A stretch of 12,737 nt of DNA from a bacterium (GTDB lineage: Bacteria; Cyanobacteriota; Vampirovibrionia; Obscuribacterales; Obscuribacteraceae): positions 1 through 12,737 of the forward strand of contig JAUIJG010000124.1 of assembly GCA_030431355.1 (NCBI GenBank), written 5' to 3'. Made by a program: the position numbers and the translations under genes. The notes beneath the pieces were generated by a model. That model saw only the letters and a program-made list of their open reading frames with translations, ran no database searches and was not told the DNA's origin. Below, piece after piece: positions 2-12,349 of the stretch (its first letter is position 1; each line of letters starts with the position of its first letter).

Positions 2-1006
2 GTCGTCCTGGAAGCAGAAAAGCTCAAACAGAAAGTAGAGCGGTTGAAGAGCGCCATCGCCCTCAGTGCTAGAGCAAATAAGGACGCAATCCTTCCCGGT
101 TATACTCATATGCAAAGGGCGCAACCGGTGCACTTCTCCCATTCCCTCCTGGCCTTCTATGAAATGCTGGAAAGGGACAGGGCGAGATTGGATGAAGTAA
201 TAGAACGAGCCTCGGTATCGCCTCTAGGGGCTTGCGCCCTTGCGGGCACCAGCCTACCTATCGATATCTCACTCACCACCCGAGAGCTCGGATTCAAAAG
301 CAGTTTCAAAAACTCCATAGACGCTGTTCTTGACAGAGATTTCGTCATGGACATTCACTATGCCATGACAGTAATCTCGGTGCATCTCTCCCAGATGGCC
401 GAAACCCTTATCACCTGGATGACGGCGGAATTCAATTTCATAAAATTGCCGGACAATCTGACCACCGCCTCCAGTCTCATGCCCCAGAAAAAAAATCCCG
501 ACGGCATCGAACTAGTCCGTTCGAAGTGCGGAATCGCACTGGGAGAACTTGTGAGCGTGGTGACGATTCTCAAAGGCTTGCCCCAGGGCTACAACCGCGA
601 TCTGCAGGATACAAAACCAGGAGTGGCGAGAATCTCGGAACTGATTCAAACTGCCCTGGAAGTTATGGCACTGAGCTTCGAGCATCTGGAAGTGAATAAA
701 AGTTCTCTGGACGAGGCGGTAAGTGATCCAGGACTCTTCGCCACAGACTTGCTTGAGATGCTGGTTAAAAAAGGAGTGCCCTTCAGACAAGCGCATTCCA
801 TGGTCTCTGAACTGGCCAAGGGATCCGATGCCGAGAACACACCCCTCAACAAATACAGCCTCAAGCAATTTCAAGCCATATGTGACAAATTCGACGAAGA
901 TGTCTACAAGTGCTTTGTGGCAAAAGACTCGGTGGCCGCCAAAAGCTCCTCCGGCAGTACAGGAACCGCCGTGGTTGCCGCAGCCCTGAGCGATTTGGAG
1001 AGCTAG
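2..1006 (+). CDS. argH: Argininosuccinate lyase, C-terminal part (5' end outside window)
   Basis: Last step of arginine synthesis: cleaves argininosuccinate to arginine and fumarate in the cytosol, as a homotetramer of the fumarase/aspartase superfamily. The open frame runs in from the left edge at base 2. The 334 visible residues are roughly the last three quarters of a usual 450-470 residue ArgH. Visible family blocks are the GYTHMQRAQP segment (bases about 98-127, active-site Thr-His region), the ALAGTSLPID segment, and the superfamily signature SSLMPQKKNPD (bases about 473-505) with the catalytic Ser loop. After this comes KGLPQGYNRDLQDTK, also typical of ArgH. One small departure is that the residue before the signature Ser pair is Ala, where ArgH normally has Gly. 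No internal stop or frameshift is seen, so the gene looks functional. The TTG at 44 is an internal codon, not the start. No convincing terminator follows the stop. Confidence 0.95.
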   Translation, partial: VVLEAEKLKQKVERLKSAIALSARANKDAILPGYTHMQRAQPVHFSHSLLAFYEMLERDRARLDEVIERASVSPLGACALAGTSLPIDISLTTRELGFKSSFKNSIDAVLDRDFVMDIHYAMTVISVHLSQMAETLITWMTAEFNFIKLPDNLTTASSLMPQKKNPDGIELVRSKCGIALGELVSVVTILKGLPQGYNRDLQDTKPGVARISELIQTALEVMALSFEHLEVNKSSLDEAVSDPGLFATDLLEMLVKKGVPFRQAHSMVSELAKGSDAENTPLNKYSLKQFQAICDKFDEDVYKCFVAKDSVAAKSSSGSTGTAVVAAALSDLES

Positions 1007-1017
1007 CCACAAGAACC

Positions 1018-1045
1018 TTGAGACGAGAGTCCCATAATATATAAG
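1018..1045 (+). promoter_or_regulatory. Candidate sigma70-type promoter upstream of the kinase run
   Basis: TTGAGA at 1018-1023 and TATAAG at 1040-1045 are separated by 16 bases, close to the consensus -35/-10 arrangement. This lies in the argH-kinase gap, 65 bases before the first kinase ATG, and would start transcription near 1052. A second TTGAGA occurs at 1059-1064, but no good -10 partner follows it. The call rests on consensus matching only; the AT-rich stretch here would give such matches easily. Confidence 0.4.
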
Positions 1046-1060
1046 AATCCATGGATTCTT
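1043..1060. promoter_or_regulatory. Perfect 18-bp palindrome, candidate operator
   Basis: AAGAATCCATGGATTCTT reads the same on both strands with no mismatch and no spacer. It overlaps the last bases of the candidate -10 element and the expected transcription start, the classic place for a dimeric repressor site. It is unlikely to be an intrinsic terminator: the stem is AT-rich and no T-run follows. The regulator is unknown, and none is encoded nearby. Confidence 0.4.
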
Positions 1061-1109
1061 GAGATCTAATAAGGGAATAAACAATAAGTAGACCCTATAG
1101 TCTTGATTC

Positions 1110-3470
1110 ATGGAAAAGGTTCCGGAAAAAGAGAAGACAGAACTGAAAGTAGGTTCTGATACAGAAGCTGAGTCGACTACAAATGTTGACGCGGATTCTC
1201 AGTCGGCTGCCACAGCGGCGTCTGAGTCCTTGCCCTTCATAGACGAACGATTCGAAGTGCTCTCTCTAATTGGGAAAGGCGGAATGGGCGCTGTCTATAA
1301 GGTAAAAGACCTGGAACTGGACAGAATACTTGCGGTGAAAGTCCTGCAAAAGGAGCTTACCGCGGATAACGTAGCTAAGAAACGGTTCGAGCAGGAGACC
1401 GAGTCGGCAAGGAAGCTCAACCATCCTAATCTTGTCTCCGTCTACAACCAGGGAATGACCGTTGACGGCGAACCATATCTGGTTATGGACTACCTGGAAG
1501 GTAAGAGCCTCGCCCAGGTCATCGATGAGGAAGGGGCTCTATCCACAGACAGAACCCTGAACATATTCATTCAAATCTGCGACGCCCTGGACCATGCCCA
1601 TGAAAACGGGGTGATTCACAGGGACATAAAACCGACCAACATAATTCTAACTTCGGAATCTGACGGGCATGAGACGGCAAGGATAGTCGACTTCGGCATC
1701 GCCAAGGTGATGGACAACACGGCAAGGGAGACCCATGACCTCACCCAGACAGGAGAGGTCTTCGGCAGCCCGCACTATATGAGTCCCGAACAATGTCTCG
1801 GATTCATGCTTAAAAAGGAGTCCGACGTTTACTCTCTCGGTTGCTCGATGTATGAAACCCTGACAGGTCAACCACCTTTTGCCGGCTCCAATCCGATTCA
1901 GCTTGTGGTCAAGCATATCAACGATGACGTGGATGGCTTCGCCAAGGAATTCAAACGTTCAAAGAAGCAGAAACAGCTTGAAACAGTGACCTTGAAATGC
2001 CTCTCCAAGGAGATGGAAGATAGATATCCTTCCGCCCGGGATCTAAAAGAAGATCTGGAGAAAATAGAGACAGGAAAAGCAATTCCCAATTACTCCGTGC
2101 GTTCAAAAGCAAAGCCGGCATTCACAAGAAGGCAGTTGCTGATCGCCTTTCCTGTTTTGCTTGGTTGTTTTGTCTATGGACTAGTGGCCACCATGACCCT
2201 TATCGGCGACAGAGTAACCGGTACTCTTCTAAACTTTGTCGCCCTGGCTATTCTTCTACCGGGCATGTCCGCACTCATGTTGGTGGGTTATGAAAAATTC
2301 AAGGAGATTAAACTAGGAAAGTCATCCGGCGCCAATTGGTGGCAGATGCTCCTTGCCACCACCACCGGAGTCGCAGGACTTTCACTTTCACCCTTTTTAC
2401 TCTATGAGCTGTTACACAAAATACTGCCCCTGGATTTCATGCACCCGCTCAACACCATCGGCATTTTGATTCACTCAGTAGCAGTGCCGCTGATAGTGGC
2501 GTCCTTCTTGGGTTGGTTGCTTTTCAGAAAAGTAGAGTCTACAAGGGCATGGAAAGTAAGCCTGCAACTAGCGATTCTTACCGCATGCGTGGTGGCTCTG
2601 CCGGTTCTCGCTATTCCGAATAAATTGTCCTACATTCCCGAGAATTTAGCGAAAGCGACTGCCAGCACCTTTCCGCAAATCTCTGTGCTGGCTAGAGAAG
2701 TCCAGATCATGCTCTCCAAGCATCCTGTGTCTGCCCTCAAAGATCTGGCCCGGTTTTATCTATCCCGGGGAGAGTTAGAGAAAGCCGCGGAAGTCTATAC
2801 AAGAATCGCCAACAGCAGTAAAAATGGAAGCGCTGTCGCCCAGTCCGACAACTACCGAGACATAGCCAAATATTTTGAAGGACAACATGAATTCGAGAAA
2901 GCGATTGTCTATGTGCGCAAGGCTCTGGCGGTTCTGCCCCAGACGAACAAAAATAAGAATCGTCGATACAACCTCTTACGCAGCGAAGTGGATATGCTCC
3001 TTCGCCTGGAGAGATACAAAGAAGCTCTAGGGCCAATTAACGAGTTGCTAACCTATCCAAGAAACTGGAATGGAGTCGATAGTTATCTGGTGCTTCGAAA
3101 AGCCAACATTTTAACCCGACTGGGTCGAGGCGAAGAAGCGATAAAACTACTCGACAAATTCCTGGACCGGTACGGATATAACATAGACTTTCTCATGCTG
3201 AGAGCGAGACTGCTTGAAACTTTAGGGAAGCCAGACCTTGCCATTTTGGATTACCGAAGACTTTTAGACGCCTATAAAGCTTTCGGGGAAGCACCAAATA
3301 GAAGCGTCATCCACCTGAAAGCTTTCCTGTATGCGGCTTTCAAATGCGAAGACCAGGAGACTTTTGATGCGATCATGAATCTATTAAAGCGCCGGGGAGG
3401 TTCGGGAATGGATGATCTCGCCCAGCATCTTAGCTTACCCATTTCAGGCATCCCCTTGAATCTAGAATAG
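1110..3470 (+). CDS. Membrane Ser/Thr protein kinase with five membrane helices and TPR tail
   Basis: Hanks-type protein kinase of 786 residues that should phosphorylate Ser/Thr on partner proteins. Residues 1-45 are an acidic, Ser/Thr-rich leader. The kinase domain spans about 48-318 and all catalytic positions are present: glycine loop G55-x-G57-x-x-G60, Lys77, helix-C Glu96, H170-R-D172-x-K174-x-x-N177, D194-F-G196 and S225-P-E227. Five hydrophobic stretches follow (about 342-364, 371-394, 411-435, 448-472, 481-503). About five TPR-like helical repeats come next (roughly 542-723). Many bacterial kinases have one membrane helix; five is unusual, and an odd number would put the TPRs outside the cytoplasm. 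ATG 1110 is the first possible start, because an in-frame stop lies at 1104-1106. No good Shine-Dalgarno is seen. The stop is 11 bases from the next gene, suggesting an operon. Kinase call very sure; substrate unknown. Confidence 0.95.
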   Translation: MEKVPEKEKTELKVGSDTEAESTTNVDADSQSAATAASESLPFIDERFEVLSLIGKGGMGAVYKVKDLELDRILAVKVLQKELTADNVAKKRFEQETESARKLNHPNLVSVYNQGMTVDGEPYLVMDYLEGKSLAQVIDEEGALSTDRTLNIFIQICDALDHAHENGVIHRDIKPTNIILTSESDGHETARIVDFGIAKVMDNTARETHDLTQTGEVFGSPHYMSPEQCLGFMLKKESDVYSLGCSMYETLTGQPPFAGSNPIQLVVKHINDDVDGFAKEFKRSKKQKQLETVTLKCLSKEMEDRYPSARDLKEDLEKIETGKAIPNYSVRSKAKPAFTRRQLLIAFPVLLGCFVYGLVATMTLIGDRVTGTLLNFVALAILLPGMSALMLVGYEKFKEIKLGKSSGANWWQMLLATTTGVAGLSLSPFLLYELLHKILPLDFMHPLNTIGILIHSVAVPLIVASFLGWLLFRKVESTRAWKVSLQLAILTACVVALPVLAIPNKLSYIPENLAKATASTFPQISVLAREVQIMLSKHPVSALKDLARFYLSRGELEKAAEVYTRIANSSKNGSAVAQSDNYRDIAKYFEGQHEFEKAIVYVRKALAVLPQTNKNKNRRYNLLRSEVDMLLRLERYKEALGPINELLTYPRNWNGVDSYLVLRKANILTRLGRGEEAIKLLDKFLDRYGYNIDFLMLRARLLETLGKPDLAILDYRRLLDAYKAFGEAPNRSVIHLKAFLYAAFKCEDQETFDAIMNLLKRRGGSGMDDLAQHLSLPISGIPLNLE

Positions 3471-3481
3471 GAAAAAATCGG

Positions 3482-4531
3482 ATGAGATACCTTGTGGTTA
3501 TTGCAGGAACACTAAATACAAAGCGCTTCTGGCCGGAGGGGACCAGCGATGCCGATACCATCAAGCTTGACATTACCAACGGTGGCTTTTACTACGGTGT
3601 GCCGCATAGCAACAGCAAGTTAAGGAAGACCAAAGTCTTTGATGATGCCTATTGTTTAGTGGACGATGAGAAACGCCCTCTGGTTTCTGACAAAGGGATA
3701 GTCGATATCAGGTTGCAAGGGGTGGATGCCCCGGAGCTTCATTATCCGGTGGAGTTCGAAGACAGCGATGCCCTCACCCTGCACTACCGGCAATACTTCG
3801 GCAAAACCGCCACAGTGGATCTTCTGTCGGCTCTCGGCGGACCGAACAAAAAAATCGATGTTGAAATCTGGTCTTATATAGATAGACCCAGTGACCTGTT
3901 TGACGCTTACGGCCGGGCCATAGGCTACGCCTTTACCCTCAATGAGCACGGCGACAGCTTCGATCTGAACATAAATGAATGGCTGATCAATAACGGTCTG
4001 GCCTTTCCCACCTTTTATTCTACAATGCAGTTCGAAGAGCTTGAGTACTTCGCCCATCTCTCCAATCAGGCGAGTAGATACAAAAGAGGAATCTGGCGTC
4101 ATCTCACCAATGAAGTAAGAAAGTCCCAGCTCAAGCTCAAATTTCGCTACAGCGATAGAAAGTTCGACCGGGACAAAGACCGCGGTCCGGTAATGTTTCC
4201 AAAAGTATTTCGGCGGGCTTCCAGATGGCTTCGAGGAATGGAGATCGGAGAAATCGACTCAAAAATGACCCTACAAAAATTTCTCAAGTCCCAGCCGACG
4301 GTGACCTTTTCCTACCTGGATGACATGGTCAATTTCGGTCCCAAGTACTCCATACCGATCTACAAACTGGAAGATGTCATAACAGGAGCAGGGCGAATCT
4401 CCATCTCTCCCATGCGAGTTGTTTTTTACGAGAAGCCTTCATTTGTCTTCAACAAAAGAGGAATAGAGATATCCAATTTTGAGGAAAATGTACTGGAAGG
4501 ATTGGAAACCATGTATGGCACCACCAGCTAA
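3482..4531 (+). CDS. Staphylococcal nuclease-fold (thermonuclease-like) protein
   Basis: A 349-residue protein whose first 206 residues match the SNase/TNase fold, a calcium-dependent sugar-nonspecific phosphodiesterase family. By motif alignment, D23-A-D25-T26 fits the family DGDT. R77 with VDAPE (D82, E85) matches the catalytic Arg, the calcium-binding Asp and the general-base Glu. DAYGR (R145) is the second catalytic Arg, and the NEWLINNGLAF and RGIW segments complete the barrel and helices. An insertion of about 45 residues separates the first two motifs. Residues 207-349 form a basic, then mixed C-terminal region I do not recognise. There is no clear signal peptide or membrane helix, although many SNases are exported. 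AGGAAA at 3469-3474 sits 7 bases before the ATG, and the gene lies between two kinase genes at 11 and 26 bases. Fold and active-site match are strong; actual nuclease activity and target are inferred. Confidence 0.85.
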   Translation: MRYLVVIAGTLNTKRFWPEGTSDADTIKLDITNGGFYYGVPHSNSKLRKTKVFDDAYCLVDDEKRPLVSDKGIVDIRLQGVDAPELHYPVEFEDSDALTLHYRQYFGKTATVDLLSALGGPNKKIDVEIWSYIDRPSDLFDAYGRAIGYAFTLNEHGDSFDLNINEWLINNGLAFPTFYSTMQFEELEYFAHLSNQASRYKRGIWRHLTNEVRKSQLKLKFRYSDRKFDRDKDRGPVMFPKVFRRASRWLRGMEIGEIDSKMTLQKFLKSQPTVTFSYLDDMVNFGPKYSIPIYKLEDVITGAGRISISPMRVVFYEKPSFVFNKRGIEISNFEENVLEGLETMYGTTS

Positions 4532-4557
4532 GACATTGCAGGATAACGGATTAGACA

Positions 4558-6588
4558 ATGTCCCAGGATAAAGGCTTTGAATTTAAACCCAGGCAGGTTA
4601 TCAATGACCGCTATGAGATCCTGGAAAAAATAGGCTCCGGTGGAATAAGCTCTGTTTACACCGCCAAAGATCTACTGCTAAAACGTGTTCTGGCGCTCAA
4701 AGTTTTGAAGCCGGATAAGCTCAAAGACGAGCATCTAGTAAGGTTGCATAGAGAAGCAAAGGCTATTTGTCAGCTCCAGCACTCAGGAATCATAGAAGTC
4801 TATGATTTCATCATCACTGATGACAACATTCCCCTACTTGCCATGGAATATGTCCAGGGGCGAGAGCTATCGCGGGTGATCGAAGACCAGGGTTCGCTGT
4901 CGGCGGAGGAAGTCCTGCCGATATTCATTCAAATTGCCAACGCTATGAACTACGCCCATGAGAGGAATACTCTTCACCGGGACTTAAAACCGGAGAATGT
5001 TCTTGTCACCGATGACACCTATGGCAATACCAGAGTAAAGATATTTGACTTCGGAATCGCTAAAATTTCCGATCTGGAGGACGACTCAATCACTCGGTCA
5101 GGCTTCATTGTAGGCACTCCAGCATATATAAGTCCGGAGCAGGCAAAAAACGAAGATGCCGATCAAAGAAGTGACATCTATTCGATGGGATGTCTAATGT
5201 TCAAAGCTCTGACTGGAAAACCTCCTTTCCGGGGGAAGAACCTGGTTGAGACGGTGAACATGCAAATCAATTCACCAGCTCCTGAGATGAAGCAGGTCTC
5301 TGCTCAAATAGATATCCCCGAGGCACTCGAATCGCTTGTCAGGAAAACGCTTGAGAAATCTCCTGCCGACAGGCCTCAGTCCATGGCTGAATTGGCAGAG
5401 TACTTAAGCAGGATTCAAGAGGAGCTATTATCAATCCAGGGTGATGAAGAAGGCGAAGATTCTCCAGAGCCTGTGAATCAAGAAAAAGATCCGGTCGGCA
5501 AAAGAAGAGTTGTTGAAACATCCTTGGTTTTGATCCTGCTTCTTGTTTTTCTGGCATTTCCCATCTATGCCCTTCTCTCGACCAGACAGGATGCGCCTAA
5601 AGCAGACTCGAACGAAAATGAGTTAAGTAGCACCCTGAAGAAATACGGAATCAGACGAAAGCGAATTAACGACAATCTGTTTTTTAGCCTTGAAGGCAAA
5701 GTAGACGATGATCAGCTAGATGCTTTGAAGTTAGTGAAGCCGGAACGCATGGACTTAAAGAATGCCGTAGTCACTGATAAGCAGCTAAAGTACCTGGAAA
5801 CATTGCCGATCAAAGTGCTGGACATGCGCAACACTGGTATCGGTGATGATGCCATGATTCACATAGGCAAAATAACAGGATTGCAGTCGCTCTTATTGGA
5901 AGGCTGCCACAAAATCAGCTCAAAAGGCTTCAAAGAGCTTGGTGGACTAGAAAACCTGGTGGTTCTATCATTGAGAGACACGAATGTGTCGGACAAAGAC
6001 ATGGAAGTGATTAGCGAGCTTGGAAATATCAGAATGCTCTATATATCTAAATCGCCGAACATCACAGACAAAACTGTTCCCGAGTTACTCAAGTTAAAGA
6101 AGCTTGTATCAGTGAGAATGGGCGGCACCAAAATCACCGAAGTAGGCATAGCCGGGATCCAAAAACATGATGGACTCTCCTTCATCGGACTAAAAGATTT
6201 AAAAATCGACGATAAAAAAATGCCGAAAGCTTTCAATCCACATTTAACCATGTTGGATCTATCCGACAATTTGATAACAGACGGAAGTATTCCAAAATTG
6301 CTTAAGCTCAAGAACTTATGGTTCCTTGACGTCAGAGGCTGCCCGAACCTGAGCGCAGTGGGAACGAATCGTCTCTGCAAACAGTTTCCCCTCAGTGAGA
6401 AAAAGCTGGTTTTCTCAGATATGGCCGATACCCTGGCAAAATTTGCCATGGTTGCCGACAATGAATGGTATCTTGATCCGAGAGTCTACCTGGACACATC
6501 CTGGAATAGTCAGCGATTCCGCGAAGAATATGTGACAACAGATTTTCTGTTTACTGGAAAACGTCCCCATGTAAAAGAGATGGAATAG
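4558..6588 (+). CDS. Membrane Ser/Thr protein kinase with C-terminal leucine-rich repeats
   Basis: A 676-residue Hanks-type kinase. The kinase domain (about 18-290) keeps Lys48, helix-C Glu66, H140-R-D142-x-K144-x-x-N147, D164-F-G166 and S192-P-E194. The glycine loop is G26-x-G28 with Ser31 replacing the third Gly. An acidic linker leads to one membrane helix (about 321-341). A tail of about 335 residues follows, with leucine-rich repeats of roughly 24 residues (about 390-600; each unit has L-x-x-L-x-L/M followed by T/I-x-D). The LRR part should lie outside the cytoplasm and is a likely ligand- or protein-binding sensor. The kinase domain is clearly a paralogue of the first kinase (shared IFIQI, AHE, DFGIAK). 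It follows the nuclease-fold gene by 26 bases, with GGA at 4548-4550 as a weak ribosome site, so it is probably the last gene of the same operon. Ligand and substrate are unknown. Confidence 0.94.
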   Translation: MSQDKGFEFKPRQVINDRYEILEKIGSGGISSVYTAKDLLLKRVLALKVLKPDKLKDEHLVRLHREAKAICQLQHSGIIEVYDFIITDDNIPLLAMEYVQGRELSRVIEDQGSLSAEEVLPIFIQIANAMNYAHERNTLHRDLKPENVLVTDDTYGNTRVKIFDFGIAKISDLEDDSITRSGFIVGTPAYISPEQAKNEDADQRSDIYSMGCLMFKALTGKPPFRGKNLVETVNMQINSPAPEMKQVSAQIDIPEALESLVRKTLEKSPADRPQSMAELAEYLSRIQEELLSIQGDEEGEDSPEPVNQEKDPVGKRRVVETSLVLILLLVFLAFPIYALLSTRQDAPKADSNENELSSTLKKYGIRRKRINDNLFFSLEGKVDDDQLDALKLVKPERMDLKNAVVTDKQLKYLETLPIKVLDMRNTGIGDDAMIHIGKITGLQSLLLEGCHKISSKGFKELGGLENLVVLSLRDTNVSDKDMEVISELGNIRMLYISKSPNITDKTVPELLKLKKLVSVRMGGTKITEVGIAGIQKHDGLSFIGLKDLKIDDKKMPKAFNPHLTMLDLSDNLITDGSIPKLLKLKNLWFLDVRGCPNLSAVGTNRLCKQFPLSEKKLVFSDMADTLAKFAMVADNEWYLDPRVYLDTSWNSQRFREEYVTTDFLFTGKRPHVKEME

Positions 6589-6591
6589 AAC

Positions 6592-6628
6592 AGAAAAGAG
6601 AATGGAAATAGCAACCTATTCCTTTTCT
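6592..6628. terminator. Possible bidirectional terminator hairpin between convergent genes
   Basis: AGAAAAG (6592-6598) and GAAT (6600-6603) can pair with ATTC (6618-6621) and CTTTTCT (6622-6628). This gives an imperfect 11-bp stem with one bulged A and a 14-base loop. It covers the whole gap between the LRR kinase and the opposing pseudokinase and includes the latter's stop codon. The stem is AT-rich and there is no long T-run, so termination strength is doubtful. Confidence 0.3.
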
Positions 6629-8100
6629 ATGGTTCTCAGGTGTGACTGTTCAATCTCTTCAAGGCGCTTTCTCATCTGTTCGACATTGGCTTTGTCGCCT
6701 TTGCCCTCATAGGCTTTTAACAATCCGGTCAGTGACTTAACCGCTCTTTCATCATTGTCTTTGATGGAATCGGTCGTTTTCAATGCCTGTTCGTAAGAAG
6801 TCACGGCACTCTCATAATTCTTGCTCTTGAGAGCGCTGTCGGCAGAAGACATTTGTTGCTCCCACATGAGCTTGACCCACAACGGACCTTTGTCTTCGTC
6901 ACTGCCTTGATAAAACAAGATTGAGACAGCACCGATAACCACCACTGCCGCCACCACAGCAAGCATGGAAAATGACTTACTCAGGTCTTTTACCTTGCCC
7001 TGGATCTCCTCATCAATTTTTCGTTCTTCTTCTTTTACTTTAGCGGCTTCCTCGGCCACTCTTTTGGCTTCAAGATCTTGCTCCTCCTCATGCACTTCGG
7101 GAGCTTCACTCGATTGCTCGGTGAACACCGAGGGTGAATACTTGGTGTTTGCTCCTGCGGGCAAATAGATCCTGGACTCTTTGGCAGCGTACAAAATCTC
7201 TTTCTGCATAACCTCAAAAGAGGTGTATCTTCCCCGGGGATCTTTATTGAGGGCTCTGATTGTAAGATTGTCCAACATGGGAGGAATGGCAAGCTCAGGA
7301 GCCACTCCGCGCAATGGCAACAGTTGTTCCTGAAGATGTTTGCTATGTAACTCCTCCAGCGACTTGCCGCTATAAGCGGGCAGACCTGTTAAGGCTTCGT
7401 ACATGAGAGCACCGACGGAATAAATTTCTGACAACTCAGAAGCACTCTGCCCTTCCACCCGCTCCGGGCTCAAATAAAGTGGACTCACATTTTCGGCCAC
7501 CGGTCCACTCAGGTTTACAAAACAGCTGCCTGGCAATGCCATCGAAGTAAGGATCAATTTGTCGGGGATCTTAGGATCATCGACAAAAATGCAGGATGCC
7601 GGCATCACATTGCCGTGAAAAATTCCGGAAGACTTCAGATCATTCATAATGCCAAGCATCTGATTGAACAAGTGAACAACCTTGTCAGCCTTCATCTCAC
7701 CATGCTGCTCCATACGCTCTGCCATCGAAACACCATGGGGCAACTCGGAGAGTACATAGTGAATACCGCTCTCCAGGGCACCATATGCGAGGCAGGGAGC
7801 GATCTGGTCATTGGATAGCTGTGATCGTCTACCAAGATGCGACTCAAACTGGCCGGAATCTATTATCTGCGAGGCATAGGTTTCCAACAAAAGGGTTTTA
7901 CCGGAATCTTTATCGATAGTCTTATAAATTCGGATATGCTCACCGGGAAAGACACAACTCTGAAACTCCAGATTATGCGATGCTACCGTCATCGATGGAG
8001 GAAACTCCATGTTGGCTTCGGCTAGAGCATAGGAATCATGGGGGCAGACCTCAGAAGCTTCGGCAAAACTTCTATGACAGGCAAAACAAAACAAAGCCAT
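6616..8100 (-). CDS. Zinc-finger pseudokinase with coiled coil, membrane helix and TPR-like tail
   Basis: A 494-residue protein with kinase-fold landmarks but without the catalytic residues. Residues 5-22 are a CxxC-x10-CPxD zinc-ribbon-like element (C5, C8, C19). The kinase-like region spans about 50-305. The catalytic loop reads HGNVMPAS (162-169), so the HRD Asp is Asn164, the Lys is Met166 and the Asn is Ser169. The DFG position reads TSM (185-187), the beta-3 Lys aligns with Glu73, and the glycine loop is gone. YLSPE (209-213) and the YSVGALMYEALTG helix remain, which confirms the ancestry. A charged coiled coil (about 338-372), one membrane helix (about 377-397) and a TPR-like helical tail (about 410-490) follow. 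ATG 8100 is chosen because GAGGAAG (bases 8109-8115, minus strand) sits 8 bases upstream; the longer frame to 8199 has no such site. It probably acts as a scaffold or allosteric regulator rather than an enzyme. Confidence 0.9.
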   Translation of the reverse strand: MALFCFACHRSFAEASEVCPHDSYALAEANMEFPPSMTVASHNLEFQSCVFPGEHIRIYKTIDKDSGKTLLLETYASQIIDSGQFESHLGRRSQLSNDQIAPCLAYGALESGIHYVLSELPHGVSMAERMEQHGEMKADKVVHLFNQMLGIMNDLKSSGIFHGNVMPASCIFVDDPKIPDKLILTSMALPGSCFVNLSGPVAENVSPLYLSPERVEGQSASELSEIYSVGALMYEALTGLPAYSGKSLEELHSKHLQEQLLPLRGVAPELAIPPMLDNLTIRALNKDPRGRYTSFEVMQKEILYAAKESRIYLPAGANTKYSPSVFTEQSSEAPEVHEEEQDLEAKRVAEEAAKVKEEERKIDEEIQGKVKDLSKSFSMLAVVAAVVVIGAVSILFYQGSDEDKGPLWVKLMWEQQMSSADSALKSKNYESAVTSYEQALKTTDSIKDNDERAVKSLTGLLKAYEGKGDKANVEQMRKRLEEIEQSHLRTIEKE

Positions 8101-8281: not shown

Positions 8282-9841
8282 ATGAGCGAAACCAGGAATC
8301 CAGACCCCAGAACAACAATACAAGCGGCCGGGCTTATCGCCGGGCCCTGCCTTGCTTTGCTAGCTTATTTCCTTCTCCCCCTTGAGTACAAAGATGCCAA
8401 TCACCAGATCGTAGAGTTTGCTCATTCCGGAAGAATTACCATGTCTGTTTTGATCTGGATGGGAATATGGTGGTTCACGGAAGCGATTGACATCTCAGCC
8501 ACTGCCCTCTTACCACTTGTTCTTTTGCCAATTCTGGGAGCCACCTCCATGGAGGCCGCAGCCGCTCCATACGCGCATCCTCTCATTTTCCTTTTCATGG
8601 GGGGCTTTCTCATAGCGCTTTCTATGCGAAAGTGGGGCATGGACAAAAGAGTAGCTTTGATTACTCTCAGTATTGTCGGCACCAAACCAGGAAATATGAT
8701 CGGTGGATTCATGCTGGTCTCCGCCGTTCTAAGCGCTTTTGTTTCAAACACCGCCACCACCACAATGATGCTTCCGATTGCAATCTCTGTCATTGACCTG
8801 ATGCGTCGCAAATCAGAAGATAATCCCAGATCGGAGTCCGACTCGAAAAACTTTGCGGTCTGCTTGCTCCTGGGTCTTGCCTACGCTTCGTCTATAGGAG
8901 GCATATCCACTATTATCGGCTCGGCACCAAATGCGCTACTGGTAGGCTTCATAGAGGAGTCCATCGCTGCCCCATATAGAAGGGAGGTGAGCTTTGTAGA
9001 ATGGATGGAAGTGGCCATGCCGCTTTCCGTTGTACTGCTGCCCTTGACTTGGATCCTCTTGACCAAGATTCTCTTCAAGTTAAACGGGGATGGAATCAAA
9101 GGTGGAGCCAGATATATAAGAGACGAGTTAATGGAGTTGGGTCCGGTGAACCGGGGAGAATGGACCACCATTATTGTCTTTTTGACCACGGCTTCTTTGT
9201 GGTTGACCAGGCCCCTGTTGAAAGATCTTCCCTTGACCATCGCCGGAACACAGTTCTTTCCATTTCAAGGACTTACTGACGCGGGTATAGCAATGGCGGG
9301 AGCAATTCTCCTCTTCGTCATTCCTGTGGACTTGAAGGAGCGTATCTTCACAATGGAATGGAAAACAGCCAACGAGCTACCCTGGGGAATTTTGATTCTC
9401 TTCGGTGGCGGTTTGAGTCTGGCTTCTTGCGTGCAAAGTAATGGGGTGGCGGAGTTCATCGGCAGTCAAGCCCATCATCTGGCCGGTATGCCCAGTTTTT
9501 GTCATATTCTAGGAGTAACGGCGACCGTTTTATTTTTGACAGAGCTGACCTCAAACACAGCCACCACGGCTGCACTTTTGCCGGTACTGGCTGCCGTAGC
9601 TCCCGGATTCGGTCTGCATCCGTACTATCTTATTTTCCCTGCCGCCATCTCTTCCAGTTGCGCTTTCATGATGCCGGTGGCGACACCACCGAACGCCATC
9701 GTCTTCGGCTCGGGCGAGGTGACCATGAGACAGATGATAAGAGCCGGACTCTGGCTAAATATCTGTGCGGTTGTGATAATTACCCTGCTCTCTCTGGTCA
9801 TACTTCCCAATGTGTTCACCTCAATTTGGAAACATGGATAA
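8282..9841 (+). CDS. DASS/SLC13-type sodium-coupled anion symporter
   Basis: An inner-membrane transporter of 519 residues, of the divalent anion:sodium symporter family (INDY/CitT/SdcS group). It probably imports dicarboxylates, or possibly sulfate or other divalent anions, with sodium. The two inverted-repeat SNT motifs that form the sodium and substrate sites are present: S155-N-T157 (VSNTATTT) and S424-N-T426 (LTSNTATTA). GSAPNA (213-218) and the family signature region around AFMMPVATPPNA (461-472) are also there. About eleven hydrophobic segments are visible, and the length is normal for the family. ATG 8282 is the first start after an in-frame stop at 8273-8275; no good Shine-Dalgarno is seen. 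It is divergent from the pseudokinase gene, with 181 bases between the two starts. The stop overlaps the next gene by 8 bases, so the two are likely translated together. Substrate cannot be told from sequence alone. Confidence 0.92.
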   Translation: MSETRNPDPRTTIQAAGLIAGPCLALLAYFLLPLEYKDANHQIVEFAHSGRITMSVLIWMGIWWFTEAIDISATALLPLVLLPILGATSMEAAAAPYAHPLIFLFMGGFLIALSMRKWGMDKRVALITLSIVGTKPGNMIGGFMLVSAVLSAFVSNTATTTMMLPIAISVIDLMRRKSEDNPRSESDSKNFAVCLLLGLAYASSIGGISTIIGSAPNALLVGFIEESIAAPYRREVSFVEWMEVAMPLSVVLLPLTWILLTKILFKLNGDGIKGGARYIRDELMELGPVNRGEWTTIIVFLTTASLWLTRPLLKDLPLTIAGTQFFPFQGLTDAGIAMAGAILLFVIPVDLKERIFTMEWKTANELPWGILILFGGGLSLASCVQSNGVAEFIGSQAHHLAGMPSFCHILGVTATVLFLTELTSNTATTAALLPVLAAVAPGFGLHPYYLIFPAAISSSCAFMMPVATPPNAIVFGSGEVTMRQMIRAGLWLNICAVVIITLLSLVILPNVFTSIWKHG

Positions 9842-10562
9842 ATCTATAGTAACCCTATTGCTTGCGCTCCTGGTACTTTCAACACAGAGCCAGCCGCTTT
9901 ATGGCAAGACTCTGAGCGCCACGATAGAACACAAGAAAGTATTACCGGCGGTGCCGGAAGAACTTAGAGCGGGAGCCACTTTTGACGATAGTTATCTCCA
10001 GGCGATGTCGTCGAGCAAGTGGTTTAAAATTCCAGATTGGCTCGCAGGTACCTGGCAGCGTAAGAGGATAAAAAAACGAGTCATGGGTATGGCCGTGGTC
10101 TCAGTAGCTGATCACAGGATAAGACATTTCGGTCATCAAGTTGATGCCCGGAAAGATATATGGCACTGGGTAAAAGTACCCCGCAGGATCATCACGGAAA
10201 GACCGAATTTGCTCAGTTACTTTTTTGCCTCGGATGAAAGCTGTGAGGAGATTGACAAAAACACTGTCAAAGTTAGAACTATCTGGACCGCCTGGAGCGT
10301 GAACAAGTCCAACAATCAAATAGTGAAAGTTCAGCAGGGTGACCAGATCGACATATTCAAACTAAAAGCGCCCGGCAAGCTTAAAGCCGACAGCTATACC
10401 CAGTATTACAATCAATCGGGCACAAAAATAGCAAGCCAGAGAGCCTACTGGGAAGAGTCAAAAATAGAAGAGTTCAATCAGATAGACTTTCAAGACAATC
10501 AAAATCTAAGAGTTCTATTTGAAGAGTTTCTGAAGCAGAACGGACTCACAGATTTACTCTAA
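9834..10562 (+). CDS. Hypothetical exported protein coupled to the anion symporter
   Basis: A 242-residue protein not recognised as a named family. Residues 1-24 look like a Sec signal peptide: charged MDKS, then a Leu/Val-rich core, then a polar Ser/Gln stretch with a plausible cleavage site near residue 24. The mature part has a Trp-rich segment, WFKIPDWLAGTW (63-74), reminiscent of small beta-barrel (lipocalin- or FABP-like) openings, and then alternating beta-like stretches. It ends with an acidic helix. That fold idea is only a suggestion. ATG 9834 is chosen over ATG 9810 because it starts the signal peptide and overlaps the transporter stop by 8 bases, a common coupling arrangement. The protein may sit in the periplasm and support the transporter, but no binding-protein family is seen. 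Its stop overlaps that of the opposing gene by 4 bases. Confidence 0.75.
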   Translation: MDKSIVTLLLALLVLSTQSQPLYGKTLSATIEHKKVLPAVPEELRAGATFDDSYLQAMSSSKWFKIPDWLAGTWQRKRIKKRVMGMAVVSVADHRIRHFGHQVDARKDIWHWVKVPRRIITERPNLLSYFFASDESCEEIDKNTVKVRTIWTAWSVNKSNNQIVKVQQGDQIDIFKLKAPGKLKADSYTQYYNQSGTKIASQRAYWEESKIEEFNQIDFQDNQNLRVLFEEFLKQNGLTDLL

Positions 10563-11092
10563 AACAAGCTGTTATCGACAGCAAAATTAAAGAGCCAGTT
10601 GACGCAGTAGGGGGTCGCCAGACCTCCTACTATTCCAGACAATCCGAGCAACACTTTCACTATTCCATCGCTTGCGCCGGTTGCCATCTGGATAAATCCG
10701 AAAAGCATTGCCGGAACACCTACTCCACAACCGATCATCAATACGCCATTAGAAATATAGCTCAAAATACTCTCTAGTTTACCCAGCATTTGAAGACGCC
10801 CGTGGGCTCTATGATTCTGCCCGCTGGGCAATTTAGCATGCTGTCCTATACAGCCTCTATTGCCACCCATATTTTGAACTCTACCGGCGCCTCTCCTGTC
10901 CCCGCCCGGTTGCAAGTAAGCAGGCTGATTTCCAGGCATTCTCCCGGGCAATTGTTCGCCCCTTAGATAACCCCTCGAAGGCGAATGATCATGAACCGAC
11001 TGAGCCTCTGATGCGGACCAGAGACCGGCTAGTAGTAGGAAAAAAAACGCTAAAGTGACTCTCAGCACTGTCGATGCTGCCTCCGACTTCAT
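10559..11092 (-). CDS. Small secreted/membrane protein with VirB2/TrbC-like architecture
   Basis: A 177-residue protein. Residues 1-31 form a signal peptide ending ASEAQS. Residues about 32-100 are a low-complexity region rich in Gly, Pro, Gln, Arg and His. Two hydrophobic helices follow (about 108-136 and 144-170), joined by a short TGASDG turn, with GIVKVLLGLSGIVGG in the second. Signal peptide plus two helices around a short polar turn, with a Gly-rich second helix, is the layout of VirB2/TrbC pilins. No other type IV secretion gene is in the window, and the low-complexity insert is atypical, so this is a resemblance, not an assignment. ATG 11092 is preferred over the in-frame GTG at 11110 because it gives a normal signal peptide; neither has a strong ribosome site. 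The stop shares bases with the opposing gene's stop. Confidence 0.7.
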   Translation of the reverse strand: MKSEAASTVLRVTLAFFFLLLAGLWSASEAQSVHDHSPSRGYLRGEQLPGRMPGNQPAYLQPGGDRRGAGRVQNMGGNRGCIGQHAKLPSGQNHRAHGRLQMLGKLESILSYISNGVLMIGCGVGVPAMLFGFIQMATGASDGIVKVLLGLSGIVGGLATPYCVNWLFNFAVDNSLF

Positions 11093-11209
11093 CTGACAAT
11101 AATCTACCACGCCGAAAGAAAGAAAGCCTCAAAAACAAATTGACCAGGCAGCACTTTCTCGTTCCCACAATGATAGGATCTACTGCGAAGGGAAATTAGT
11201 AGACTTGAA

Positions 11210-12349
11210 ATGAATTCGAGCAATTTAAGCAAGACCACTGAAATCAAGACAAAAACGATCAAAACCAGGCTGTTTATATGCCTGGTTCTCGTCGCCTGCC
11301 TGACCACTTGCATAACTTCCTGTGGTCAGGAGGACCGACCGGACAAATCAGTCAAGAAGAAAGAGAAAAAACCGGATAGGCTGATCAGCCAGGATTCAGC
11401 GGACAAGTTTCTATTCGATAATCCCAAGAGAACTCTTAAAGAGGCGAAGAAGCTCTATCTGAAACCGTCTCCGAAAAGAGATAAGTGGCAGGATTACAGA
11501 AGAGCGACAAAGAAAGCTTATTTTGCCGACGACTACAATAGCGCTATCTTGCTGGCCACTGAAACAATAGAACTCAATCCGAACTGCGCTGAAGCCTATA
11601 CGCTAAGGGCAAAAGCTCGTTATGATTCCCTGGAAGGAGACGACAAAACCCTTCTTGCAGACCTGGAAAAGGCCATAGAACTGGGCACCACTTCCGATGA
11701 CACCTACAATCTGATCTCAAGAATGTACGACAAAATCGGCAAGCCAGAAAAGGCTGTGGCAGCTCTCACTAAAGGTATTTCTCTGACTGAAGATCCGAAG
11801 CATCTCTACCGGGTGCGCGCAGGTCTCTATTGCAGCATGGGTCAAAATGAGAAAGCCGTCGAAGACTACAATCACCTGCTCAAGGTCAATCCTCGTTATT
11901 CGCGAATATACGCGCACCGTGGACAGTTATACGAGGGTATGGGCAAAAATGAAGAAGCCCTGGAAGATTATAGGAAAGCAGCCCTCTATGACAACGGTAA
12001 AGCCGCTGTTCGAGTGATGCCGATAGCTCTTAACCTCAGAATTGACCTCTTAAAGAAGATGGGCCGGCACAAAGAAGCCATAAAAGACCTCAATCAATTG
12101 TTAAAAGCAAATCCATACGAAGATGAGTTGCTGAGGAAAAGAGGAGATTCCTACGCCGCTCTCAAAAAATATAAAGAAGCTCTCAACGACTTCAATAAGG
12201 CCATAGAATATGAACCTGACTATGCTCGAACAGCCTATGAATCACGGAGTAAGATCTACAAAATTTTAGGCAAAGATGAGTTGGCCGCCAAGGATTTGCA
12301 AACCGCAAAGAGAATAAAAACCACACCGGCAGAAAAGCCAATTTATTAA
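11210..12349 (+). CDS. TPR-repeat lipoprotein
   Basis: A 379-residue protein. Residues 1-37 are a long signal sequence with a basic N-terminus, a hydrophobic core (21-33) and the lipobox I-T-S-C38, so Cys38 is probably lipidated and the protein anchored to a membrane facing the periplasm or outside. A Lys-rich linker (about 40-95) is followed by seven to eight TPR units (about 97-370), each with the Ala/Gly-Tyr and ...A...D...AIEL-P pattern. TPRs bind other proteins, so this is a likely scaffold or assembly factor of an envelope complex; no partner is evident. The start has no strong Shine-Dalgarno; AGGG is about 20 bases upstream. Two perfect hairpin-forming repeats lie inside the signal-sequence coding region. 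It is followed after 11 bases by the acyltransferase gene, probably in one transcript. Confidence 0.9.
   Translation: MNSSNLSKTTEIKTKTIKTRLFICLVLVACLTTCITSCGQEDRPDKSVKKKEKKPDRLISQDSADKFLFDNPKRTLKEAKKLYLKPSPKRDKWQDYRRATKKAYFADDYNSAILLATETIELNPNCAEAYTLRAKARYDSLEGDDKTLLADLEKAIELGTTSDDTYNLISRMYDKIGKPEKAVAALTKGISLTEDPKHLYRVRAGLYCSMGQNEKAVEDYNHLLKVNPRYSRIYAHRGQLYEGMGKNEEALEDYRKAALYDNGKAAVRVMPIALNLRIDLLKKMGRHKEAIKDLNQLLKANPYEDELLRKRGDSYAALKKYKEALNDFNKAIEYEPDYARTAYESRSKIYKILGKDELAAKDLQTAKRIKTTPAEKPIY
11263..11287 (+). repeat. Inverted repeat, 8-bp arms, within lipoprotein signal-sequence coding
   Basis: AACCAGGC (11263-11270) and GCCTGGTT (11280-11287) are exact reverse complements around a 9-base AT-rich loop. 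As RNA this would form a compact hairpin about 55 bases into the coding sequence of the TPR lipoprotein. It may be a coincidence of codon use. Confidence 0.5.
11299..11330 (+). repeat. Inverted repeat, 9-bp arms, directly after the previous one
   Basis: CCTGACCAC (11299-11307) and GTGGTCAGG (11322-11330) are exact reverse complements around a 14-base loop. The right arm covers the codons of the lipobox Cys38 region. With the repeat just upstream it makes two tandem hairpins within 70 bases. Confidence 0.5.

Follow-up and report, generated by a model that had tools for sequence, protein, structure and literature searches.

The contig JAUIJG010000124.1 (GenBank assembly GCA_030431355.1), from a bacterium of the order Obscuribacterales, is 12,737 nucleotides long, and the whole of this stretch is referred to here as the window. 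Three of its genes lie in a tight row on the plus strand: a Hanks-type Ser/Thr kinase with membrane helices and a tetratricopeptide repeat (TPR) tail (K1, 1110..3470), a 349-residue protein with the fold of staphylococcal nuclease (SNase; SN, 3482..4531), and a second Hanks-type Ser/Thr kinase with one membrane helix and a leucine-rich-repeat (LRR) tail (K2, 4558..6588). The intergenic gaps are 11 bases between K1 and SN and 26 bases between SN and K2. A pseudokinase gene on the minus strand (PK, 6616..8100), encoding a Cys-rich N-terminus, one membrane helix, and a short tail, converges on K2, and 27 bases separate the two stops. A preliminary description of this DNA had proposed two intact kinases with different tails (polytopic plus TPR, one helix plus LRR), an SNase-fold protein between them, and a membrane-bound pseudokinase converging on the row; the catalytic motifs and their loss in PK, the helices, the coordinates, the Pfam match, the fold, and the strand all bear this out. 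We favour the reading that K1, SN, and K2 form a narrow, lineage-specific three-gene kinase-nuclease transcription unit. Its parts are known, in a combination for which no name was found.

SN carries the SNase (OB-type) fold in residues 3-206, and residues 207-349 make up a family-specific C-terminal part. The protein matches PF00565 with 39.9 bits (curated cut-off 21). Asp23, Asp25, Arg77, Asp82, Glu85, and Arg145 are invariant in an alignment of 87 sequences, from which 2 short hits of 89 were excluded. Arg77, Asp82, and Glu85, together with Arg145, align with the corresponding motifs of S. aureus nuclease among solved nucleases, and Asp25 is presumably the first metal Asp of the motif. SN was found to contain no hydrophobic helix, secretion signal, or membrane anchor (the highest mean hydropathy over 19 residues is 0.74), and it scores 29.7 bits against the EcnA model, for which the cut-off is 180, so that it does not belong to the secreted Nuc/EcnA type. 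Compared with staphylococcal nuclease/thermonuclease (PF00565), SN is alike in fold, Pfam match, and catalytic residue pattern, but differs in having no secretion-like hydrophobic N-terminus and in carrying an additional C-terminal part of 143 residues with no match to a solved structure. As judged from its sequence, SN is quite likely to be a working cytoplasmic nuclease, probably dependent on a divalent metal.

A protein search with SN returned 89 hits, namely the window itself, seven proteins at 46-80% identity, and then sequences at 28-35% identity from Bradyrhizobium and others. The eight close sequences fall into one group (support 100/100; 100% of 200 bootstrap trees) in an unrooted tree of 84 of the 89 sequences, and include P0006 ('Candidatus Obscuribacterales bacterium') and P0007 ('Cyanobacteria bacterium HKST-UBA02'). 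The C-terminal part is common to relatives in several phyla. When it was modelled alone (predicted local distance difference test, pLDDT, 82.8), the best Foldseek match had an E-value of 2.7, no VIA-align match was obtained among 111 chains, and no PHROG match was found. These absent matches do not amount to evidence of a new fold.

Both K1 and K2 keep the VAIK lysine, HRD, DFG, and the activation-loop PE, and are thus Hanks-type kinases. About four hydrophobic stretches (residues ~343-502) precede the TPR tail of K1, and a single one precedes the LRR tail of K2. Both proteins resemble PknB-type kinases in matching PknB_PASTA_kin over the kinase part, with all catalytic motifs, but differ from the PASTA kinases (PknB/Stk1): the scores of 325.4 and 311 bits, against a cut-off of 450, cover the kinase part only, and a Pfam scan found no PASTA repeats in either protein, which have TPR and LRR tails instead. 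A K2 of 99% identity (P0090, measured over residues 300-676) sits on public contigs of up to 71,733 bases, and longer contigs from a very close organism therefore exist.

The same row is present at one further locus (L001, on WGMS01000008.1 of isolate RI_106, genome G001). The order is that of the window: lyase, K1, a second K1 in tandem, SN, K2, PK in reverse, a DASS-family transporter, a small gene, and a TPR gene. Here, the second K1 copy (K1b) shares the 4 bases at its stop with the start of SN, SN and K2 are 2 bases apart, and 15 bases lie between the stops of K2 and PK. This spacing and overlap make it very likely that K1, SN, and K2 are co-transcribed. Amino acid identity between the window and L001 is 80% for SN, 79% for the transporter, and 71% for the lyase, and 55% for PK, 50% for K2, and 46% and 43% for the two tandem copies of K1; the small gene and the TPR gene have 52% and 47%. 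Non-synonymous divergence (dN) is lowest in SN (0.138), followed by the transporter (0.171), the lyase (0.224), and the kinases and PK (0.37-0.56), values that serve for ordering only because synonymous sites are near saturation. By these values SN, which evolves no faster than the enzymes on either side, is under purifying selection.

In the mechanism that we propose, SN would be co-produced with K1 and K2, both Ser/Thr kinases anchored in the membrane and bearing different binding tails, and its activity or location would most likely be set by phosphorylation by K1, K2, or both. Phosphorylation of SN by one or both kinases would account most simply for the tight row, as seen in two related genomes. 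PK, membrane-bound and devoid of catalytic residues, would act by binding the adjacent kinase and modulating it. We put the probability that K1 and K2 control SN through phosphorylation at roughly 0.4. That PK has a part in the system appears unlikely, and it is decidedly doubtful that the whole operates as a kinase-gated intracellular nuclease, with two sensor-tailed kinases, PK as a check, and SN switched on or off by phosphorylation in a response to damage or infection that is confined to a single branch of the non-photosynthetic cyanobacterial relatives. Two kinases with a single candidate substrate gene retained between them offer a directly testable kinase-substrate pair from an uncultured group, which, if confirmed, would be an instance of bacteria controlling an SNase-fold nuclease inside the cell by phosphorylation. 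A search of the open-access literature with narrow terms found no paper linking SNase or thermonuclease with a Ser/Thr kinase; likewise, no study of this lineage's numerous Ser/Thr kinases surfaced, most subscription papers being outside its scope. In PMC4040986, the kinase passage found deals with polyphosphate and adenylate kinases.

Several observations, on distribution and on kinase density, weigh against the control of SN by K1 and K2. Much of this material suits a rival that is near-equal in probability to the phosphorylation reading, namely that SN is an independent nuclease of nucleic-acid turnover or repair which happens to lie in a kinase-rich area, perhaps on a shared transcript, and is not a substrate of K1 or K2. 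The gene order would then persist because the two genomes are related. Only these two related genomes carry the K1-SN-K2 row, and their synteny spans the lyase to the TPR gene, well beyond the four genes, which makes gene order weaker evidence of shared function.

SN was found in a single one of 53 genomes of the order, G001, and the full-length SN family in one of 382 genomes sampled from the class, again G001; five further matches among the 382 (E 1e-5 to 9e-4) span the SNase part only. SNase proteins of the ordinary short kind, with open frames spanning 149-214 residues, occur in all four genomes of the order that were checked with PF00565. Proteins with a long SNase plus C-terminal part (L002-L080) are found in Bradyrhizobium, Bacteroidetes, Acidobacteria, Nitrospira, Verrucomicrobia, and archaeal metagenome-assembled genomes. 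A scan of the genome collection with the SN sequence alone gave no relative, a scan with the SN alignment supplied the best 80 of 114 relatives, and the viral collection contained 2 distant ones. None of the 81 other SN-relative loci had a kinase hit in its flanks, which were scanned with a home-made profile from 12 kinases over up to 10 kb, or less at contig ends. The lineages of these distant loci may have few such kinases; their kinase-free flanks mean that SN does not need kinases, and remain compatible with kinase action on SN here. Nor did the distant relatives have a neighbour at a fixed position across phyla, as analysed at 63 of 82 loci (the other 19 were dropped because a longer overlapping open reading frame (ORF) displaced SN in simple gene picking). 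The largest group of conserved neighbours comprised 7 ORFs from 6 Bradyrhizobium loci, and one group of 4 ORFs joined L010, from Acidobacteria, to three loci from Bradyrhizobium, with a different position in each of the four.

The tails of the two kinases are distributed differently. At E<=1e-20, the K1 tail occurs among the 53 genomes only in G001 (2 copies), as SN does, and K2-type tails occur in 23 of them. Six K2-type loci in three genomes have other gene neighbours, and SN is absent from their ORFs; K2-type kinases thus adjoin several kinds of gene, the ten scanned neighbours including TPR, matrixin, S9 peptidase, FMN reductase, amylase, and esterase genes. At L135 8815-13620 (G030), an esterase-like gene has a K2-type kinase on one side and a second, divergent kinase on the other, so that an intervening gene is not special to SN. 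The longest contigs of the SN relatives P0004-P0007 (3360, 34181, 6662, and 13337) equal none of the sizes given for K2-tail relatives; these sizes are apparently those of cluster representatives, and scoring covered the 7991/7993 candidates sharing most words. The K2 of L001 itself (P0104) was missed by one search for K2-tail relatives and recovered by another.

Kinase genes are abundant in G001, with 110 matches over the Pfam cut-off (113 in all) in 4.4 Mb. Under random placement, assuming 3800-4200 genes, ~3 genes would be flanked by kinases on both sides, and ~0.7-0.8 would have all three genes on one strand. Thirty kinase pairs in G001 have domain starts within 5.5 kb, 9 of them at 3.3-5.5 kb. 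Among these 9, all of which were read, K1b-SN-K2 is the only case of a single same-strand gene with tight spacing on both sides; the 21 closer pairs (<3 kb) were covered where they fell within the same stretches. In such a genome, a gene flanked by two kinases is unremarkable by itself, but the tight K1-SN-K2 row, seen twice, exceeds the usual layout there. What speaks against an independent nuclease is that no second row of this kind, tight and on one strand, occurs among the 9 spacings, and that the genes in L001 overlap or nearly touch.

In PK, the VAIK lysine and DFG are absent and HGN replaces HRD, and the L001 orthologue shows the same losses, including HGN; going by this retained motif loss, PK is a true pseudokinase. 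Compared by description with the bacterial pseudokinases of PMC12599244, it is alike in the loss of catalytic motifs, and membrane association is a feature of some families there. The families GLW, CP1, and DLHK are treated there, with two uses of 'nuclease', both about Dna2. Relatives of PK (E<=1e-40) occur in 9 of the 53 genomes of the order. Outside G001, seven of eight converge tail to tail not on K2 but on another kinase, one with Cys-rich ends, and the eighth (G047) is placed where its contig ends. The Cys-rich-ended kinase has one match each in 38 of the 53 genomes (E<=1e-90). At the 35 of these 38 loci that were readable downstream, the next ORF is a converging PK-family gene in 9 and another ORF in 26, and the gaps of the 9 converging pairs range from 0 to 370 bases. 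In G001, this kinase is on another contig (L175), where it is faced by a 133-residue ORF and not by a PK gene. PK-type genes therefore recurrently converge on a kinase gene, with a partner that varies and with no need for SN. A fixed pair of a kinase facing PK was considered as the core of the system and rejected, since the facing kinase of other genomes differs and its G001 orthologue is on another contig. As a separate observation, the PK family (L096-L102, L188, L189; window 6616-8100) has members with HGN (G018, G019) and members with HRD (G037, G038, G039, G041, G042, G044, G047, G048), which might allow the loss of catalysis to be followed within one family.

Recurrence across genomes, as the preliminary description envisaged it, was thus found in part. 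The row returns in L001 with tighter spacing, but at none of the 81 other SN-relative loci was there a kinase hit; the pseudokinase neighbour also returns in L001, but PK-type genes elsewhere converge on another kinase, away from SN. The data do not bear out the row as a general system, as K2-type and PK-type kinases occur without SN in other genomes. Of the proposed signalling module, the conservation of K1-SN-K2 in L001 and of the catalytic residues of SN stands, but the tail-to-tail position of PK turned out to be a recurring habit of its family.

A further proposal is that the genes form an anti-phage or stress-suicide unit, in which K1 and K2 would sense a trigger through their TPR and LRR tails and unleash SN on nucleic acid. 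In a PADLOC scan of four window proteins, K1 and K2 matched the PD-T4-6 and mad6 profiles over the kinase domain, and the distribution of SN is patchy. However, the profile matches are confined to the kinase domain and would be obtained with any such kinase. SN is not fast-evolving and gave no match in PADLOC, and none of the annotated neighbours (an arginine-synthesis lyase, the transporter, the TPR protein, and an acyltransferase) is a defence gene. The similarity of K1 and K2 to PD-T4-6, MADS, and BREX/Pgl is likewise limited to the kinase domain, and the methylase and other partner genes of MADS and BREX/Pgl were not found among the 10 ORFs of the window by the Pfam scan. Defence was rejected as the leading reading on account of the kinase-only PADLOC matches, the lack of one for SN, and the nature of the neighbours; patchiness is its only positive evidence, and we regard a unit of this kind as highly improbable. 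The same low probability applies to the proposal that K1, K2, and PK regulate the metabolic genes on either side, those of arginine synthesis and anion transport, with SN as a passenger. In its favour, the lyase and the DASS transporter are kept neighbours, and a second DASS gene in G001 likewise has a kinase gene ~1.5 kb upstream, encoded on the opposite strand. Against it, a search at E<=1e-60 recovered the transporter from just 2 of the 53 genomes, and its gene lies beyond PK.

The preferred three-gene unit is preceded by a leader of K1 (1007..1109, plus strand), which contains GGGAATAA (1073-1080) and the palindrome AAGAATCCATGGATTCTT (1043-1060). The former recurs in L001 at 5173-5180 and 7586-7593, 30-49 bases before both K1 copies, and the longer GGGAATAAYTATCTGGT has its only 0-mismatch occurrences in G001 at those two copies. 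AAGAATCCATGGATTCTT, a perfect 18-base palindrome in the interval between lyase and K1, had a match within 3 mismatches in 26 of 200 shuffles. A promoter and terminator scan of the window gave no more sites than shuffled sequences did.

The kept neighbours on either side, the lyase and the DASS symporter, are not counted in the claimed module. Upstream, argininosuccinate lyase (2..1006, plus strand; PF00206, PF14698) is cut by the window start. Downstream, a DASS-family sodium-coupled anion symporter (8282..9841, plus strand), a neighbour kept in L001, is followed by an unassigned small gene (ORF 9810-10562). Next are an ORF of 183 residues on the minus strand (10559-11110), which neither Pfam nor NCBIfam matched, then a TPR gene (11210-12349), and, at the window end, the start of an acyltransferase gene; L001 has no counterpart of the minus-strand ORF or of the acyltransferase start. 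The second DASS gene of G001 (G001:C9:61722-63188; L095, L105) has ~60% identity, and an in-frame TAG in it falls at the gene's own end and is therefore not taken for damage.

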